A DNA stretch of 55,868 bases from an uncultured Saprospiraceae bacterium. Its GTDB lineage: Bacteria; Bacteroidota; Bacteroidia; Chitinophagales; Saprospiraceae. Of the stretch, positions 24,773 to 35,988 are shown piece after piece; the first letter of the stretch is position 1; every line of letters starts with the position of its first letter. The position numbers and the translations under genes are program-made. The notes beneath the pieces were generated by a model, which did not search any database, had not been told where the DNA came from, and worked only from the letters and a program-made list of their open reading frames with translations. Where the stretch lies: the NCBI GenBank assembly GCA_937921555.1, contig CAKZUV010000071.1, positions 1-55,868 on the forward strand. Reading direction: 5' to 3'.

Positions 24773-27031
24773 ATGAAAGATATCTCTCTTTTTAAAAATT
24801 TCACAACTGTAATTGGAAGTCGAACTTTAGCTGAAATTGTCAACGGTATCAAAGGAGATCATTTTAAAAAAACAATTTTAGAAATTCAAAATTTTATAAA
24901 AAATGGCAAGAAAGAAAAGGCGAGTCATTTAAAAAAAGGATTAGTGGCTTTTACCGTTTCGGGGTTATTTGAAGGAGGTCGAAAGTTGTCTTTTTTAAAG
25001 TCATATAATCCATTTGTAATTTTAGATATTGACAGATTGGATTCAGAGATTTTATCAGATTTAGTTCTTAAGATAAATAACATTGATTTTACAAGAGTTG
25101 CTTTTAAGAGTCCGAGTGACCAAGGATTGAAGATTATTATAGAGGTAGATTCTGGAATGAAGATGCATGGTCATGCTTATCAACAGGTCAGTAGTTTTTA
25201 TGAAAAAGAATTGGAAGTAGCAATTGATAAAAGTGGAAAAGATATTACACGACTTTGTTTTATGTCTCATGATCCGGCTATTTATTTCAATCAAGAAAGC
25301 ACTGTTTTTAAGGTATTGAAATATGACATGGAGGTAAATAATTCAAGTAGTAAAAAAGAGGAAATTTCTCCGAAAAGAACAACAGATAATTCGATCAACT
25401 CCAAGATGAATTATGTGAAGGCCTTTGAAATTTGCGTCACTCAAGCCAATGCTAAATTGGTATTTGAAAAAGGCAATCGAAATAATTATATTTATAGGTT
25501 GGGCATCATTTGTAGTCATGCGGGAATTCCTTTGGAGGTGGCAGTCAAGGAGAGTAAGAAGAGGTTTGATTTTAATGATAATGAAATAGAACGGACAATC
25601 AAAAGTGCCTATGATTGGCAGCCCTACCCTTCTGAAATTTCAAATGGCAAATCATCCATCGAACTGCCTAGTGAGGTTCCTCCAGTGATTCCAGCGAAAG
25701 TGTTTGATCAGTTACCTATTTTATTAAAAGGGGGTTCTGAAGTTCTAAAAGATCAACGAGAACGAGATGTTTTTCTCACGGGAGCTTTAGGAGTTCTGAG
25801 TGGTTTGTTGCCAAAAGTGAGCGGAGTTTATGATGGTCATATTTGTTTTCCAAATTTATTCGTTTTTGTGATTGCTCCAGCGGCAAGTGGAAAAGGTGCT
25901 TTGAAGTTTTCTAAGTGTTTAGGATCGGCTTATCATGATGAATTATTGGAGGTGAGTAAAAAAGAAAAACAGGATTATAAAAAAGCTTTAGTAAGGTTTG
26001 AGATAGAAAGTACGAAGTATAGAAAAGGGAAAATTGAAACACAACCAGAATCACCAGAAGAACGAGGTTTTAAAACTTTATTTATTCCGGCCAACTCGAG
26101 TTCTGCTATGTTGATCCGACATTTAAATCAGAATGAAGATTCAGGGATTCTATTTGAGTCAGAAGCAGATACTTTGGGAAATGTTTTAAAACAAGATTGG
26201 GGTGGATATTCAGACTTATTGAGAAAGGCTTATCACCATGAGCCTATTTCTTACAGTAGAAAATCAAATAGTGATTTTATAGAGATTGCAGAACCAAAAT
26301 TATCAGTTGCTTTGTCTGGAACACCTGGTCAGGTAACGAATTTGATTCCTTCAGCAGAAGATGGTTTATTTTCTAGATTTGTGTTTTATGCTTTTGAAGT
26401 TGAGTCCATTTGGCGAGATGTTTCACCGCAAGGAAGAAGTCATAATTTTCAAAATTTCTATCAAGGATTATCAAGAGAGGTTTTGGAGATGGTACATTTT
26501 CTTAAGTTGCATCCAACGGAATTTAATCTATCAAAAGCACAGTGGAAAATGTTGAATGAGACCTTTAAAAAGTTGATGGAGGAAACGAATGAGATGTTTG
26601 GGACAGAAGCCTTAAGTATTGTAAAACGAATGGGATTGGTTTGCTTTAGAATAGCTATGATTTTATCAACGATCAGAAGATTTGAGGAAAAGAGTTTAGA
26701 CCCGAAGCTTATCTGTAAAGACGATGATTTTCAAGCAGCTATTTGGTTATCAGAGACTTATTTTAAACATGGAGTTTTTGTTTATGATCGATTGCCAAGA
26801 TATCAGACGAATAAGTTCCAGTTTAAGAATGTTAAAAAGCAATTATTTTTTGATGCTTTGCCAGAACGATTTATAAGAAAAGAAGTTTTAGAACTTTGTT
26901 CAAATTTTAATATTTCAAAACGATCAGGAATTAGGTATTTACGAGAATTAACCATTTCAGGATTTTTAGTCCAGTCTCCTATTGGCAAATTTGGGGAATA
27001 TTTTAAGCAATCAGATGGTACGGTGGCATAG
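24773..27031 (+). CDS. Primase-helicase: VirE_N/BT4734-like domain plus DUF3987
   Basis: The protein has 752 residues. Residues 1-185 form a VirE_N/BT4734-type domain with an FVILDIDRLD acidic motif (Asp85, Asp87), an SPSDQGLKIIIEV segment and DITRLCFMSHDP, an arrangement reminiscent of archaeo-eukaryotic primases. A linker helix region (about 215-290) follows. Residues about 300-560 are DUF3987 with a P-loop-like APAASGKGALKF, FESEADTLGNVLKQDWGGYSDLLRKAYHHE and LSGTPGQVTNLI. A C-terminal winged-helix-like tail ends in the stop at 27031. It probably primes and unwinds the element's DNA during replication. The TGGCAC repeats begin inside its last codons. Confidence 0.8.
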   Translation: MKDISLFKNFTTVIGSRTLAEIVNGIKGDHFKKTILEIQNFIKNGKKEKASHLKKGLVAFTVSGLFEGGRKLSFLKSYNPFVILDIDRLDSEILSDLVLKINNIDFTRVAFKSPSDQGLKIIIEVDSGMKMHGHAYQQVSSFYEKELEVAIDKSGKDITRLCFMSHDPAIYFNQESTVFKVLKYDMEVNNSSSKKEEISPKRTTDNSINSKMNYVKAFEICVTQANAKLVFEKGNRNNYIYRLGIICSHAGIPLEVAVKESKKRFDFNDNEIERTIKSAYDWQPYPSEISNGKSSIELPSEVPPVIPAKVFDQLPILLKGGSEVLKDQRERDVFLTGALGVLSGLLPKVSGVYDGHICFPNLFVFVIAPAASGKGALKFSKCLGSAYHDELLEVSKKEKQDYKKALVRFEIESTKYRKGKIETQPESPEERGFKTLFIPANSSSAMLIRHLNQNEDSGILFESEADTLGNVLKQDWGGYSDLLRKAYHHEPISYSRKSNSDFIEIAEPKLSVALSGTPGQVTNLIPSAEDGLFSRFVFYAFEVESIWRDVSPQGRSHNFQNFYQGLSREVLEMVHFLKLHPTEFNLSKAQWKMLNETFKKLMEETNEMFGTEALSIVKRMGLVCFRIAMILSTIRRFEEKSLDPKLICKDDDFQAAIWLSETYFKHGVFVYDRLPRYQTNKFQFKNVKKQLFFDALPERFIRKEVLELCSNFNISKRSGIRYLRELTISGFLVQSPIGKFGEYFKQSDGTVA

Positions 27032-32274: not shown

Positions 32275-32442
32275 TTTCTTTCTTTACAAGATGGCTCCGT
32301 TTACTGATTGACGGGGCCATTATTTTTTCATAATCCTTTGCCACATGCAGCAGTATTTTTGCTTCCTTCTATGGCGTCTATGGCCGCACTATCAGGAAAC
32401 AAAAAATCCAGCTACAAGAGGCAAATCGCCAAAACTAAAACG

Positions 32443-33228
32443 ATGACTCCTCAACAACCATTAACAGCACCAAATCTGGCACAGCTCCAAAACCAGATCC
32501 ATGAAAAATTTGCTGCAGCGAATCGAAAACCCAACGCCACTGTGATCGGAAACTGGTTAAGCCTAAACGGCATAACCACCCACACCGGAGCGGATAAACA
32601 TTATCGAGCGATCAACGCCTACTCCAACAGCCGGTTGTCTCAAATCAAAAACCAGCTGATTGGAATCCAGCGGCCAAGACCATTAAAAGCCTTTTCGATT
32701 GGGAGTATTTTGCATCAATTGATTTTGGAGCCAGAATTGGCGGAGGCTCAGGATTATGTGTTTTTGACTCCTGCGCCTATTCGCCATTTATTAGCTGCTA
32801 AAAAATCGGCGATTCGTAATAGACTTTTGAAACGGGTTTTGAGCAACGAAGAAACGCAAGTCGAGCAAGTCTTTACCTGGACCGATGCGAAAACCAAATT
32901 GCCTTGCAAGGCGAAGGTGGATATTGCTTATAGAAATCAACGTGGATTGCATATAATCGATTTAAAGTCTACTGCAGCGAAAGATCTCGATACGTTCTTA
33001 GCAGATTGTAAAAAGTATGAGTACGTGCGACAGGCGGCTTTTTATCTGGATGGTACGGGAGCGGAAACGGTTACGATTTACGGGATTCAGAAACGAGCGC
33101 CTTATCGGGTTTTTCGGAAGCGGTATACCAAACAGGAATTGGAGGAAGGGAGATGGATGTATGGGTTTATTTTGGGGAAGGTGATCGAGAATAAAGAAAA
33201 GTTAATACCGAGATTAGGGATTGATTGA
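32443..33228 (+). CDS. PD-(D/E)XK nuclease, RecE/DUF3799-like exonuclease
   Basis: I place the start at 32443 (MTPQQPLTAPNLAQLQ), giving 261 residues; the frame opens upstream at 32308 but that stretch reads as low-complexity filler. The pattern ADKHYRAINAYSNSRLSQIK followed by AFSIGSILHQLILEP is that of exonuclease VIII/RecB-type nucleases. Catalytic positions are visible: His91 and Glu97 (HQLILEP), Asp160 (CKAKVDIAY), Asp173-x-Lys175 (IDLKST), and a later YEYVRQAAFYLD (the Q/Y motif). It probably resects linear dsDNA for homologous recombination. Confidence 0.75.
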   Translation: MTPQQPLTAPNLAQLQNQIHEKFAAANRKPNATVIGNWLSLNGITTHTGADKHYRAINAYSNSRLSQIKNQLIGIQRPRPLKAFSIGSILHQLILEPELAEAQDYVFLTPAPIRHLLAAKKSAIRNRLLKRVLSNEETQVEQVFTWTDAKTKLPCKAKVDIAYRNQRGLHIIDLKSTAAKDLDTFLADCKKYEYVRQAAFYLDGTGAETVTIYGIQKRAPYRVFRKRYTKQELEEGRWMYGFILGKVIENKEKLIPRLGID

Positions 33229-33278: not shown

Positions 33279-34097
33279 TCATTTCTCCCAAACAATACTG
33301 AGAATATTTTTAAAAGATTCCGTTACGATACAATATTCATAGAATTCCGTATCCTCTTCATAATCATTTAGTTTAAAATAGGTTGATTTAGAGATCGACT
33401 GTTGCAATTCTTCTTTTTTATATATCGGTTTATAGTCTGATTGAATATATTCTAGTGCTACTGAATCTACAGGAGGCGGTAGCTTAACAATATCATTTAC
33501 AAATACTCTTAGGTCATCAGATTTTTTCCAATACCTTACTTTTCCATTAAAAATATGAAAGATCGCTATCGGATGCAATCCAGTATCAAAATATTTAAAC
33601 ACAACAGAGGTTAAACTTGTAATAAACCGTTCAGCTAATTTTTTTATCAATTTCGGGCCAAAGAACTTTCCTTTTGCCTCTGAGAAGAATAAAGTAGTTG
33701 GCATTAAATATTCTGTTGCAAACTGATTTGCTTCATACTCTTGAAAGCCTCTTTTAAGTTTTTTTTCAACATTATTAAACCATTCAAGGCTAACGTTATC
33801 ATCATGAAGTGGACTTCCTTTGTGCATTTCTAAATGTCCTAATTCATGCGCAATTGCAAACCGTCTTCGCCCTTCATATCGGATATCTGAATTTATGAAT
33901 ATAGTACAAATCCTTTTGCCATAAACAATTCTACCATCTGTCTTGCCCATTGACTTATATTGCAGAACTCCTCCTCTACCTAGGACAACATCCTCCAAAG
34001 TAAAATCATTAGGATCCTCCATTCCAATTTCTTCTCTTAACCTTATAGCTGCTAGTTTTCCTTTATTCATCTTCAGAACTGGCATCAATTTCATCAA
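33279..34097 (-). CDS. ImmA/IrrE-family metallopeptidase, CapP-like position next to CBASS
   Basis: The 272-residue protein carries the zinc motif HELGH (residues 84-88) in RRRFAIAHELGHLEMHKGS. A second conserved segment, EYEANQFATEYLMP, supplies the third ligand Glu. This is the ImmA/IrrE family, whose members cleave repressors or anti-sigma-like partners. It is the third gene of a leftward operon with the sigma-like and the 139-residue proteins, overlapping the latter by 35 bp. The operon is divergent from a CBASS operon. CapP proteases of this family are known to release CBASS repression by cleaving CapH; a comparable role is inference here. Confidence 0.8.
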   Translation of the reverse strand: MMKLMPVLKMNKGKLAAIRLREEIGMEDPNDFTLEDVVLGRGGVLQYKSMGKTDGRIVYGKRICTIFINSDIRYEGRRRFAIAHELGHLEMHKGSPLHDDNVSLEWFNNVEKKLKRGFQEYEANQFATEYLMPTTLFFSEAKGKFFGPKLIKKLAERFITSLTSVVFKYFDTGLHPIAIFHIFNGKVRYWKKSDDLRVFVNDIVKLPPPVDSVALEYIQSDYKPIYKKEELQQSISKSTYFKLNDYEEDTEFYEYCIVTESFKNILSIVWEK

Positions 34098-34482
34098 ACA
34101 AAGCAGTTAAGTCTAACTGCTCTAAGATATTACTCATTTCTTCCTTAGTCATTTTATCAAAGTTTCGATAATTAGCCGCTAACCCATATTCATCTACATG
34201 TTTTTTGAAAATAGAAAAGACGTTTTCTTTGTCCTTATCTTTTAAGGATTGTAACCGGCCCGATGCTTCTGCGATAGAAATGACTCTTGCAACTCTAACC
34301 TTTTGAATATGAGTTTTTGATTTAAAAAGTATTTGCTTGATAAGCTTTCTGTATTTCTCAGATTGTCCCTCGTAGATTTCTTCAATATCAGCAAGTGTAT
34401 CTCGATCATTTGAATAATCTTTATCCAAATAAGAACTAAGTAATCCGTCTTCAATTTTTTTTAATAACTCCTTTTTACTCAT
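34063..34482 (-). CDS. Unknown helical 139-residue protein between sigma-like and ImmA genes
   Basis: It is predicted to be all-helical and highly charged, with no clear HTH, membrane or signal segment. It contains TLADIEEIYEGQSEKYRKLIKQI, HIQKVRVARVISIAEASGRLQSLKDK, and an acidic C-terminus LEQLDLTALFDEIDASSEDE. It overlaps the sigma-like gene by 8 bp and the protease gene by 35 bp, so the three are coupled. Position and size suit an anti-sigma or protease-substrate role (compare CapH in CapH/CapP pairs), but I see no sequence evidence for this and do not recognise the family. Confidence 0.6.
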   Translation of the reverse strand: MSKKELLKKIEDGLLSSYLDKDYSNDRDTLADIEEIYEGQSEKYRKLIKQILFKSKTHIQKVRVARVISIAEASGRLQSLKDKDKENVFSIFKKHVDEYGLAANYRNFDKMTKEEMSNILEQLDLTALFDEIDASSEDE

Positions 34483-35044
34483 TACTTTTAGAATTTAGTA
34501 ATTCTCTAATTGGGTTGAGTTTTCTTTCCAGTCTTTTTATTCCCTTATAAACTTCTTTTATATCGAGTTTCCAAAAATCAGCAATATATTGTGGTTTTTT
34601 CATTTCGTCCATCCAAGATTCAAATATCATACCTTCAATCTCATCGGGCGGTGGAATATTTTCACTTAACCTTTTACTTAATTTAACTTTTAACGCTTCA
34701 GTCTCAACACTGTTTCCAGAATCAAGACCTGAAAAATTTTCCAACTTGACTTCGTAGTCGATGCTCATGACTTTCCCACCATACTGATCATTGTATTGAC
34801 TAATTAAGCTTTTAACAGCTAAAAATAAAAAACTTTTAAAGGAATAGGATTTATTCCACTTTCTTACACCTGTAACAGTTTTTTCGAAAATATCGCCTAC
34901 TAGCTTTTCTGCAGATACAACATCATTTCCTTTCATTTGATTTAGAGCATAAGTTACTAAATCATGGAAAAGTAACACAAGATTGTGAGACTCCAATTCG
35001 TCTAAAATTTCTTTAGGCGTTGCTATGTTTTTATCTGATTTCAA
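34475..35044 (-). CDS. Sigma-70-like (ECF-type) protein
   Basis: The protein has 189 residues. A region-2-like segment (SAEKLVGDIFEKTVTGVRKWNKSYSFKSFLFLAVKSLISQYNDQYG) follows the pattern of ECF sigma factors. The C-terminus, KPQYIADFWKLDIKEVYKGIKRLERKLNPI, looks like a region-4 HTH (iAexlxixxxxVykxxkRLxRxL). The middle segment (residues 95-140) is a linker. It is the first gene of the leftward operon and directly faces the CBASS operon across 119 bp. Promoter recognition for its own operon, the CBASS operon, or both is inferred. It could instead be a catalytically silent sigma-like adaptor. Confidence 0.6.
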   Translation of the reverse strand: MKSDKNIATPKEILDELESHNLVLLFHDLVTYALNQMKGNDVVSAEKLVGDIFEKTVTGVRKWNKSYSFKSFLFLAVKSLISQYNDQYGGKVMSIDYEVKLENFSGLDSGNSVETEALKVKLSKRLSENIPPPDEIEGMIFESWMDEMKKPQYIADFWKLDIKEVYKGIKRLERKLNPIRELLNSKSNE

Positions 35045-35070
35045 TAATAATAGCTCAGTTTTTGAAAAAA

Positions 35071-35088
35071 TTTGCCGTTGATGGCAAA
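35071..35088. promoter_or_regulatory. Dyad TTTGCC-N6-GGCAAA in the shared sigma-like/CBASS control region
   Basis: TTTGCC (35071-35076) and GGCAAA (35083-35088) form a perfect 6-bp inverted repeat. It lies 27 bp from the sigma-like gene start and 76 bp before the CBASS effector start, a position suitable for an operator of both. Confidence 0.5.
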
Positions 35089-35163
35089 AAATGAAAAAAT
35101 ATCAGCTTATATAGGTGTAGGGAAGAACAATAATACACAAAAGGTACCTAATACATAGACACT

Positions 35164-35988
35164 ATGAATAGATTTTTCTTAAAGATTATGGCTGTAGTCG
35201 GATTTTTTATTTCAGCTAAATGGTTTGCAAGCAATGAGTTACGACCAAATTTATACGGGATGGCGATAGGTTCAGCTGTCACTCTTCTAATAGATACGGT
35301 AATATTTTTTCGGAGGGAGCGAAACTTTTTACAACTCTACTTTAACTCCTTAATTCTAAACCGGGATAAAGAAATTAGACTTTCAATTGCCTACTTATAT
35401 AAAATTGAATGCCACGGTAAATATCTTTTGGTTCGAAATGACCGATTTGATAATGTTGCTTACCAACCAGTAGGTGGAGTATATAAATATTTTCATCCAG
35501 AGGCTACTGACAATTTACTGAAGATGTCAGTCATTCCAGATAATGCTATTGAAAATGATAGAAAAAGCGAATTTGACTTACGCTCAAAAATGAAAAATCG
35601 GAAATATTTAAGAAAGTTTCTTAAATGGTTTTATGATTCAAAAGAAAGAGAAATAGATCCATGGAGGGAATTCCATGAGGAATTGATTGAGCCTAATATT
35701 CTACCAGCAGAGCACTTTAGCTTTATTTACTATAAGTTGGTCGCGCAACATTTTGAACCAATAAAAAAAGATGAACATTACGGAATTGACACTTTTAAAT
35801 ATGTTGATGTCTATACACCTAGGTTTATAAATCAAAAACAAAAAGATGAAGTTGAAAAACTTCTAGAAATCAAAAGTGATAAATTTATTTGGGTCACAGA
35901 AGCTGAAATCAGGAAAAAACGTAGTAAAGAAGGTAAACGAATTGCACCTCATACAAATAAAATATTTTTCAACAAAAAATTAAACTAA
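35164..35988 (+). CDS. cap16: CBASS effector: two-transmembrane plus NUDIX-like domain (Cap16-like)
   Basis: The 274 residues begin with two hydrophobic helices (about 5-23 and 31-49), forming a small membrane anchor. The rest is a SMODS-associated NUDIX domain: IECHGKYLLVRNDRFDNVAYQPVGGVYKYF, then a NUDIX-box core REFHEEL (168-174) in DPWREFHEELIEPNIL. The box is incomplete relative to Gx5Ex7REUxEExGU, so ligand sensing is more likely than hydrolysis. The known family (Cap16) perturbs the inner membrane when the NUDIX domain binds a cyclic nucleotide. It is the first gene of the CBASS operon and overlaps the cyclase gene by one base. Confidence 0.75.
   Translation: MNRFFLKIMAVVGFFISAKWFASNELRPNLYGMAIGSAVTLLIDTVIFFRRERNFLQLYFNSLILNRDKEIRLSIAYLYKIECHGKYLLVRNDRFDNVAYQPVGGVYKYFHPEATDNLLKMSVIPDNAIENDRKSEFDLRSKMKNRKYLRKFLKWFYDSKEREIDPWREFHEELIEPNILPAEHFSFIYYKLVAQHFEPIKKDEHYGIDTFKYVDVYTPRFINQKQKDEVEKLLEIKSDKFIWVTEAEIRKKRSKEGKRIAPHTNKIFFNKKLN

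Follow-up and report, generated by a model that had tools for sequence, protein, structure and literature searches.

Introduction

How is a CBASS operon switched on if the genes that face it encode a CapP-type protease and, in place of a repressor, a protein resembling a sigma factor? This question is raised by a locus of an uncultured Saprospiraceae bacterium, situated in a stretch of 55,868 nucleotides of contig CAKZUV010000071.1, which is called the window below. Here, a leftward trio of genes for a sigma-like protein, a small protein X and a CapP-type protease lies opposite a rightward, type II-like CBASS operon, separated from it by a gap of 119 bp (Table 1).

According to PMC13373217, which refers to Lau et al. 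(2022), CapH and CapP form a pair of repressor and ssDNA-activated protease associated with CBASS and Bub systems. PMC10904395 and PMC13373217 also describe that CapP cleaves CapH, and IrrE/PprI cleaves DdrO, upon binding of ssDNA. Every controller that PMC13373217 names as linking DNA damage to defence operons (CapW/BrxR, CapH with CapP, CapK with CapS) is a repressor. For the present locus, we favour with a probability of roughly 0.6 the reading that the trio controls the divergent defence operon as a switch made up of a sigma, an anti-sigma and a protease.

The locus and the divergent CBASS operon

The gene arrangement described in an earlier note on this DNA was fully reproduced, including the reading frames, the overlaps of 8 bp between the genes for the sigma-like protein and X and of 35 bp between those for X and CapP, and the gap of 119 bp. 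The larger overlap results from the TTG start assumed for the CapP gene; with an alternative ATG at 34070, nine codons further in, it would also shrink to 8 bp. The assignment of the opposite operon to CBASS is equally justified, because it encodes the effector, the CD-NTase and the E2-type accessory protein that define such a system; a CoiA/DUF6035-type protein is also encoded in this operon. The second NTase-like gene behind the CD-NTase recurs in the CBASS operons of three of the related loci compared here (L075, L077, L080). To the left of the trio, genes for a DUF3987/BT4734-like, primase-type protein (24773-27031) and a PDDEXK nuclease-like protein (32308-33228) suggest a mobile element.

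Table 1. Coordinates of the trio, the promoter-like sites in the gap and the CBASS genes within the window.
Feature	Position	Strand	Basis
CapP-type ImmA/IrrE (M78) metallopeptidase, 272 aa, TTG start, HELGH at 33834-33848	33279..34097	-	PADLOC, Pfam
Protein X (139 aa), helical throughout by prediction; putative anti-sigma and substrate of CapP	34063..34482	-	ORF; putative function
Sigma-like protein, 189 aa, TTG start	34475..35044	-	ECF-type by profile and fold
Residues 59-68 of the sigma-like protein, G-x-R-x-W loop between helices 2.2 and 2.3, predicted -10 reading	34841..34870	-	covariation
Leftward trio site: -35-like CGGCAAA (35077-35071), -10-like GAGCTATT (35056-35049)	35049..35077	-	spacing 21 as in relatives
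Rightward CBASS site: -35-like TGGCAAA (35082-35088), -10-like CAGCTTAT (35103-35110)	35082..35110	+	exact match
2TM-SaNUDIX CBASS effector, 274 aa, first gene of the controlled operon	35164..35988	+	family match
CD-NTase, 375 aa	35988..37115	+	PADLOC Cyclase 4.7e-141
E2-like protein, 145 aa	37112..37549	+	PADLOC E2 3.8e-46
Second NTase-like protein, 374 aa	37485..38609	+	PADLOC Cyclase 3.2e-43

The sigma-like protein

Taken as a single sequence, the sigma-like protein of the window gives weak matches to Pfam Sigma70_r2 (E=0.0029) and NCBIfam sigma70-ECF (E=2e-4), both under the curated cut-offs; it has no PADLOC match, and a scan of the contigs with this lone sequence as query gave no matches. 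A family profile with eight relatives, compared to the PDB, finds sigma-H (6e-7), SigW (3e-6) and SigH (2e-4) across regions 2 and 4. A profile of 60 rows agrees with it (matches to sigma-H, SigW, SigH and RpoE), its top match being a repeat protein that covers a short stretch of region 4 only. In the AlphaFold2 model (pLDDT 80.5), a disordered linker (residues 92-111) connects two helical domains, both predicted well, which correspond to region 2 (approximately residues 10-88) and region 4 (approximately 113-187). The best Foldseek matches of this model are SigH of M. tuberculosis in RNA polymerase initiation complexes (2e-4), with low TM-scores of approximately 0.34, which we ascribe to the model placing the two domains arbitrarily with respect to each other. 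Within the family, W63 and S79 are nearly invariant. Hence the homology to sigma factors, on which the earlier note had made its reading depend, survives profile as well as fold searches, even if the window sequence alone stays under the cut-offs. Judged by sequence, the assignment as ECF-type sigma with regions 2 and 4 is clear once the family profile is used.

Promoter-like sites in the gap and their covariation with the sigma-like protein

The gap carries two bipartite sites that point outward, with the signature TGGCAAA...GAGCATA and the first bases of the two elements 21 bp apart; the classic form among the relatives reads TGGCAAA ... GAGCATAT. A regular expression applied with spacings from 12 to 33 found the spacing of 21 in 43 of 73 loci and any other spacing in at most three. 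Since the pattern was first spotted by eye in these loci, there is some circularity in the absolute count, but none in comparing one spacing with another. This count took the place of symmetry-based site finders, whose results depended on the register and of which the stricter missed the window itself. The main class yielded 77 sites in 25 loci, compared to 18.6 expected in block-shuffled DNA, and several distant trio loci showed no recognisable sites.

Across the 5.44 Mb genome, the rightward site of the window alone matches exactly. An excess of sites across this genome was not found either (336 versus 357 for reversed-pattern controls, with at most two mismatches), so that there is no evident genome-wide regulon and the sigma of the window looks dedicated. 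The leftward -10-like element stops 4 bp before the TTG start; a trio transcript would thus be leaderless or nearly so, which counts against the favoured switch, as do the distant loci without recognisable sites.

A back-to-back pair of sites is present in 28 loci, always at spacing 21. In contrast to this fixed spacing of the elements, the distance between the first bases of the paired sites varies (2, 3, 6, 7, 8 and 10 bp; 5 bp in the window). Such a combination points to two separate promoters, because both distances would be constant if a rigid dimer bound a palindrome. Eight loci have an additional site directed toward the divergent gene only (L013, L085-L087, L090, L091, L093, L098).

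The sites also covary with the sigma-like protein. A second group of loci has a GTTA-type outer element and a spacing of 20, i.e. 1 bp shorter. Residue 61 of the sigma-like protein is R in all 47 loci with GC-type outer elements and W in seven of the eight with GTTA-type elements. The W61/GTTA group, which for the tree comparison includes L102 (by eye with W and a TCAGTTAATAG arm) and omits L097 (with R), needs three changes on the tree of CapP, an independent gene, and these are forced by well-supported branches. The covariation ties the sigma-like protein to the outer element, as expected of a sigma. Residue 61 is located between the region 2.2 and region 2.3 helices, in the loop with which ECF sigmas read the -10 element. 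Altogether, the sequence pattern suggests that the sigma reads the sites in the gap as two promoters placed back to back. The -35/-10-like elements and the covariation with residue 61 also favour the suggestion of the earlier note that the DNA-binding partner is a sigma factor and not an XRE repressor.

A sigma-like protein on paired sites could nevertheless act as a repressor. It might have lost the binding to RNA polymerase and be held by X in pairs on the two sites, until CapP cuts X and the operon is derepressed as in CapH/CapP. The symmetry and very regular pairing in the 28 loci would suit such an operator, and all CapP and IrrE systems known so far work by derepression. Moreover, the core-binding residues of region 2.2 are only partly kept (D at position 47 in 34 of 60 proteins, lysine in the window), and X has a faint (Y/F)RN motif near the C-terminus in common with true HTH CapH. 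However, pair distances of 2-10 bp at a fixed element spacing are unlike a rigid dimer operator, and the extra single sites are directed solely at the defence gene. The parts of the sigma that read the -10 and the -35 element are both retained, and changes in the -10 loop go along with changes in the outer element. We therefore regard a sigma-derived repressor as rather unlikely, though it is the most serious competitor, and infer activation rather than repression by the trio.

The CapP-type protease and protein X

The protease of the trio has the intact HELGH motif ascribed to it before. Its PADLOC capP match (9e-48) extends over residues 12-271, thus the full length including the C-terminal part, and the family profile finds the solved CapP structure 7t5t at 2.2e-27, ahead of IrrE. 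The zinc-site residues H84, E85 and H88 as well as the downstream E120 are invariant in the family alignment. By these sequence comparisons, the protease is CapP. Among phage records it has no real relative, with one weak partial match. By analogy to CapP and IrrE/PprI, ssDNA would be its signal.

Much less can be said from homology about X. Its family comprises helical, strongly diverged proteins of 130-160 residues with a C-terminal (Y/F)RN(L/F) motif. Neither a known anti-sigma family nor a convincingly matching solved structure was found, and the AlphaFold2 model is poor (pLDDT 66). X being a CapH with a helix-turn-helix (HTH) domain was ruled out, given that neither Pfam nor NCBIfam detects an HTH in the X protein of the window. 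The PADLOC capH model matches 38 of 60 X proteins at E<=0.1, any other model at most two. However, the same model also matches, over the full length, the non-HTH partners of a second sigma type (2.2e-13 in L053; see below), and is probably a mixture of genes located before capP. Hence, its match to X is not read as proof of homology to CapH. The idea that X is homologous to the CapH C-terminus was downgraded for this reason, and also because direct comparison of X with true HTH CapH is weak, its best members reaching E values of only 0.02-0.25, although it points at the common RN motif. Apparent fusions of X and CapP in L125 and L127 were judged artefacts of GC-rich reading frames.

We propose that X is an anti-sigma and the substrate of CapP. 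M78 proteases are known to cut a small partner encoded directly upstream, namely ImmR, DdrO and CapH. For the PprI substrate DdrO, an arginine in the loop of the cleavage site contacts ssDNA in a model (PMC10904395), which by analogy makes the RN motif of X, at approximately residues 105-107, a candidate region for the cut by CapP. CapP could instead act on the sigma-like protein itself, or X could be a chaperone or adaptor that presents the sigma, the switch then serving to turn off or reset the system. Such a role would be compatible with a strongly diverged X encoded between the two other genes. It appears improbable, since X holds precisely the position of ImmR, DdrO and CapH upstream of the protease and carries at its C-terminus the motif common, if weakly, to CapH.

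Conservation and neighbourhood of the trio

Trio loci were collected from 395 phylum genomes, 395 class genomes and GTDB contigs scanned with the CapP alignment, and they were picked by protein match, not by neighbourhood. This resulted in 73 non-redundant trios, all with the order sigma-X-CapP, a conservation well beyond chance. Most belong to Bacteroidota; the others come from Planctomycetota, Verrucomicrobiota, Acidobacteriota, Myxococcota and Thermodesulfobacteriota.

Rather than lying mostly away from CBASS and other defence operons, a possibility raised by the earlier note, the trio faces a recognised defence operon on its divergent side in 43 of the 73 loci. This count covered the first six ORFs, and several of the loci scored as having none are located on short contigs. 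The systems are CBASS (18), Pycsar (9), Bub (7), Bil (5), E2-E1 with MBL (2), Qat (1) and another JAB-type system (1); with L089 (patatin, NTase, E2), L087 and L099 (ThiF), the count would rise to approximately 46. On the downstream side, an equal test, in which the unknown 415-aa family described below was included, gave 3 of 73. The restriction to the divergent side serves as an internal control against mere residence in defence islands. The mobile-element-like left neighbours in the window and the two trios adjoining Tn7-like genes might suggest that the trio is a usual ECF sigma / ImmA cassette belonging to a mobile element, which came to lie beside defence genes by chance in gene-rich islands. 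This is very improbable, given the one-sided association and the common sites located exactly within the divergent gap.

Trios that are closely related in the CapP tree lie opposite different systems, Pycsar in L085, a gene for the 415-aa protein in L086 and CBASS in L091, which argues for a portable cassette. The protein of approximately 415 residues belongs to an unknown family without Pfam or PADLOC match and is the recognisable divergent gene in six trios outside the 43 (L081:6595-7842, L013:6349-7599, L092:6118-7368; also near the trio in L086, L093 and L098). It is a candidate for a new defence gene found via its controller.

Several further observations concern the neighbours. Two trios adjoin Tn7-like genes (TnsA/TniB/Mu-type transposase; TnsD/TniQ) at L026:2892-7334 and L121:1-6886, the former divergent by 90 bp. 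Often, a very small protein is encoded first behind the divergent promoter, with DUF2188 (L046, L058-L061), DUF1508 (L048, L102) or without a name; in L083 and L088 the very small first gene lies just past the paired sites. An early or accessory function of these genes is possible. On the plasmid NZ_CP021236.1 of Pontibacter actiniarum (L207), the trio diverges from a multiubiquitin-E1 operon (multiubiquitin-ThiF-DUF6527), and umuD and a Y-family polymerase gene (umuDC) come directly after it on its own strand. Its sigma and X are both annotated as hypothetical protein. The umuDC genes behind this trio fit an input from DNA damage; a sigma site before umuD was not seen on the plasmid.

A second sigma type

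Another type of trio consists of a sigma-like protein of 220-330 residues, a partner of approximately 112 residues ending in AR.G...I...M, which PADLOC reports as capH, and CapP. It occurs in L050-L055, L152, L177-L179, L181, L182, L185, L193, L196 and L200. When 296 Bacteroidota genomes were compared, the strongest capP matches mostly had partners of sigma type (first or second); among these matches, an HTH CapH partner is found only in L183 and L201-L203. Thus, the HTH form of CapH looks like a minority within Bacteroidota. A separate unit was observed in L066:12414-14635 (-), where a second sigma-like gene (200 aa) is followed by a gene for a 540-aa protein with an X-like N-terminus, M78 protease and macro-like regions. 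This unit has its own paired promoter-like sites and lies opposite a multiubiquitin-like gene.

Discussion

The favoured switch would work as follows. In the resting cell, X would keep the ECF-type sigma inactive. DNA damage or phage attack would generate ssDNA, which would activate the CapP-type protease to cleave X. The freed sigma would then recruit RNA polymerase to the two back-to-back promoters in the 119-bp gap and switch on transcription in both directions, of the CBASS operon and of its own trio. Such self-activation would be a positive feedback, with freshly made X as its brake. Extended to all loci, we consider it still somewhat probable that the trio is a widespread portable immune controller of at least six phyla, in which the destruction of an anti-sigma by ssDNA-activated CapP releases an ECF sigma dedicated to firing a bidirectional, self-amplifying promoter. 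It would serve interchangeable systems (CBASS, Pycsar, Bub, Bil, Qat and possibly Tn7-like elements) and represent a sigma counterpart of CapH/CapP that has been annotated as capH or missed.

Several known systems resemble the trio in one respect or another. With CapH/CapP, as the pair is described in PMC13373217, it has in common the protease family (PADLOC capP, PDB 7t5t), the small gene just upstream, the position at CBASS or Bub promoters and probably the ssDNA input. In contrast to that description, the trio has no XRE/HTH repressor, its small protein is without HTH, the DNA-binding partner is an ECF-type sigma from a third gene, and activation is expected instead of derepression. The CalpL-CalpT-CalpS system of type III CRISPR consists of a Lon-SAVED protease, an anti-sigma and a sigma (PMC12751052, PMC11417357). 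It offers the analogous three-part immune logic, in which an activated protease cuts an anti-sigma and frees a sigma, the cleavage step being a prediction for the trio. Here, however, the protease is M78/CapP instead of Lon-SAVED, the predicted signal is ssDNA instead of cA4, no CRISPR locus is involved, the defence operon itself would be driven from the shared gap, and X has no convincing match to any solved structure.

The pairs IrrE/PprI with DdrO of Deinococcus and ImmA with ImmR likewise use an M78 protease to control transcription after DNA damage, but their substrate is an HTH repressor and no sigma is involved. Ordinary ECF sigma/anti-sigma pairs are alike in having a sigma of two domains, a bipartite promoter whose -35/-10 spacing is fixed, autoregulation and an adjacent gene for a small partner; X, however, stands outside the known anti-sigma families, and we propose that the sigma is released by a soluble M78 protease. 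CapW/BrxR, a ligand-binding WYL repressor, and CapK with CapS, a kinase-phosphorylated STAS repressor, are also DNA-damage controllers at defence promoters, but neither includes a sigma or a protease. Hence, the nearest logic is that of CalpL-CalpT-CalpS and the nearest parts are those of CapH/CapP. New would be that a CapP protease switch acts through a sigma factor in place of a repressor. An ImmA/CapP-sigma system was not found in the open full-text literature searched.

An annotation blind spot is likely, given that PADLOC finds no match for the sigma of the window and assigns X to capH. The signature of TGGCAAA and GAGCATA with first bases 21 bp apart can be used as a finder for controlled genes, including unknown ones, and the induction of CBASS in these bacteria is now directly testable. 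If true, the sigma-based version would provide a sharp, self-amplifying on-switch, which could account for the induction of many defence islands in Bacteroidota.
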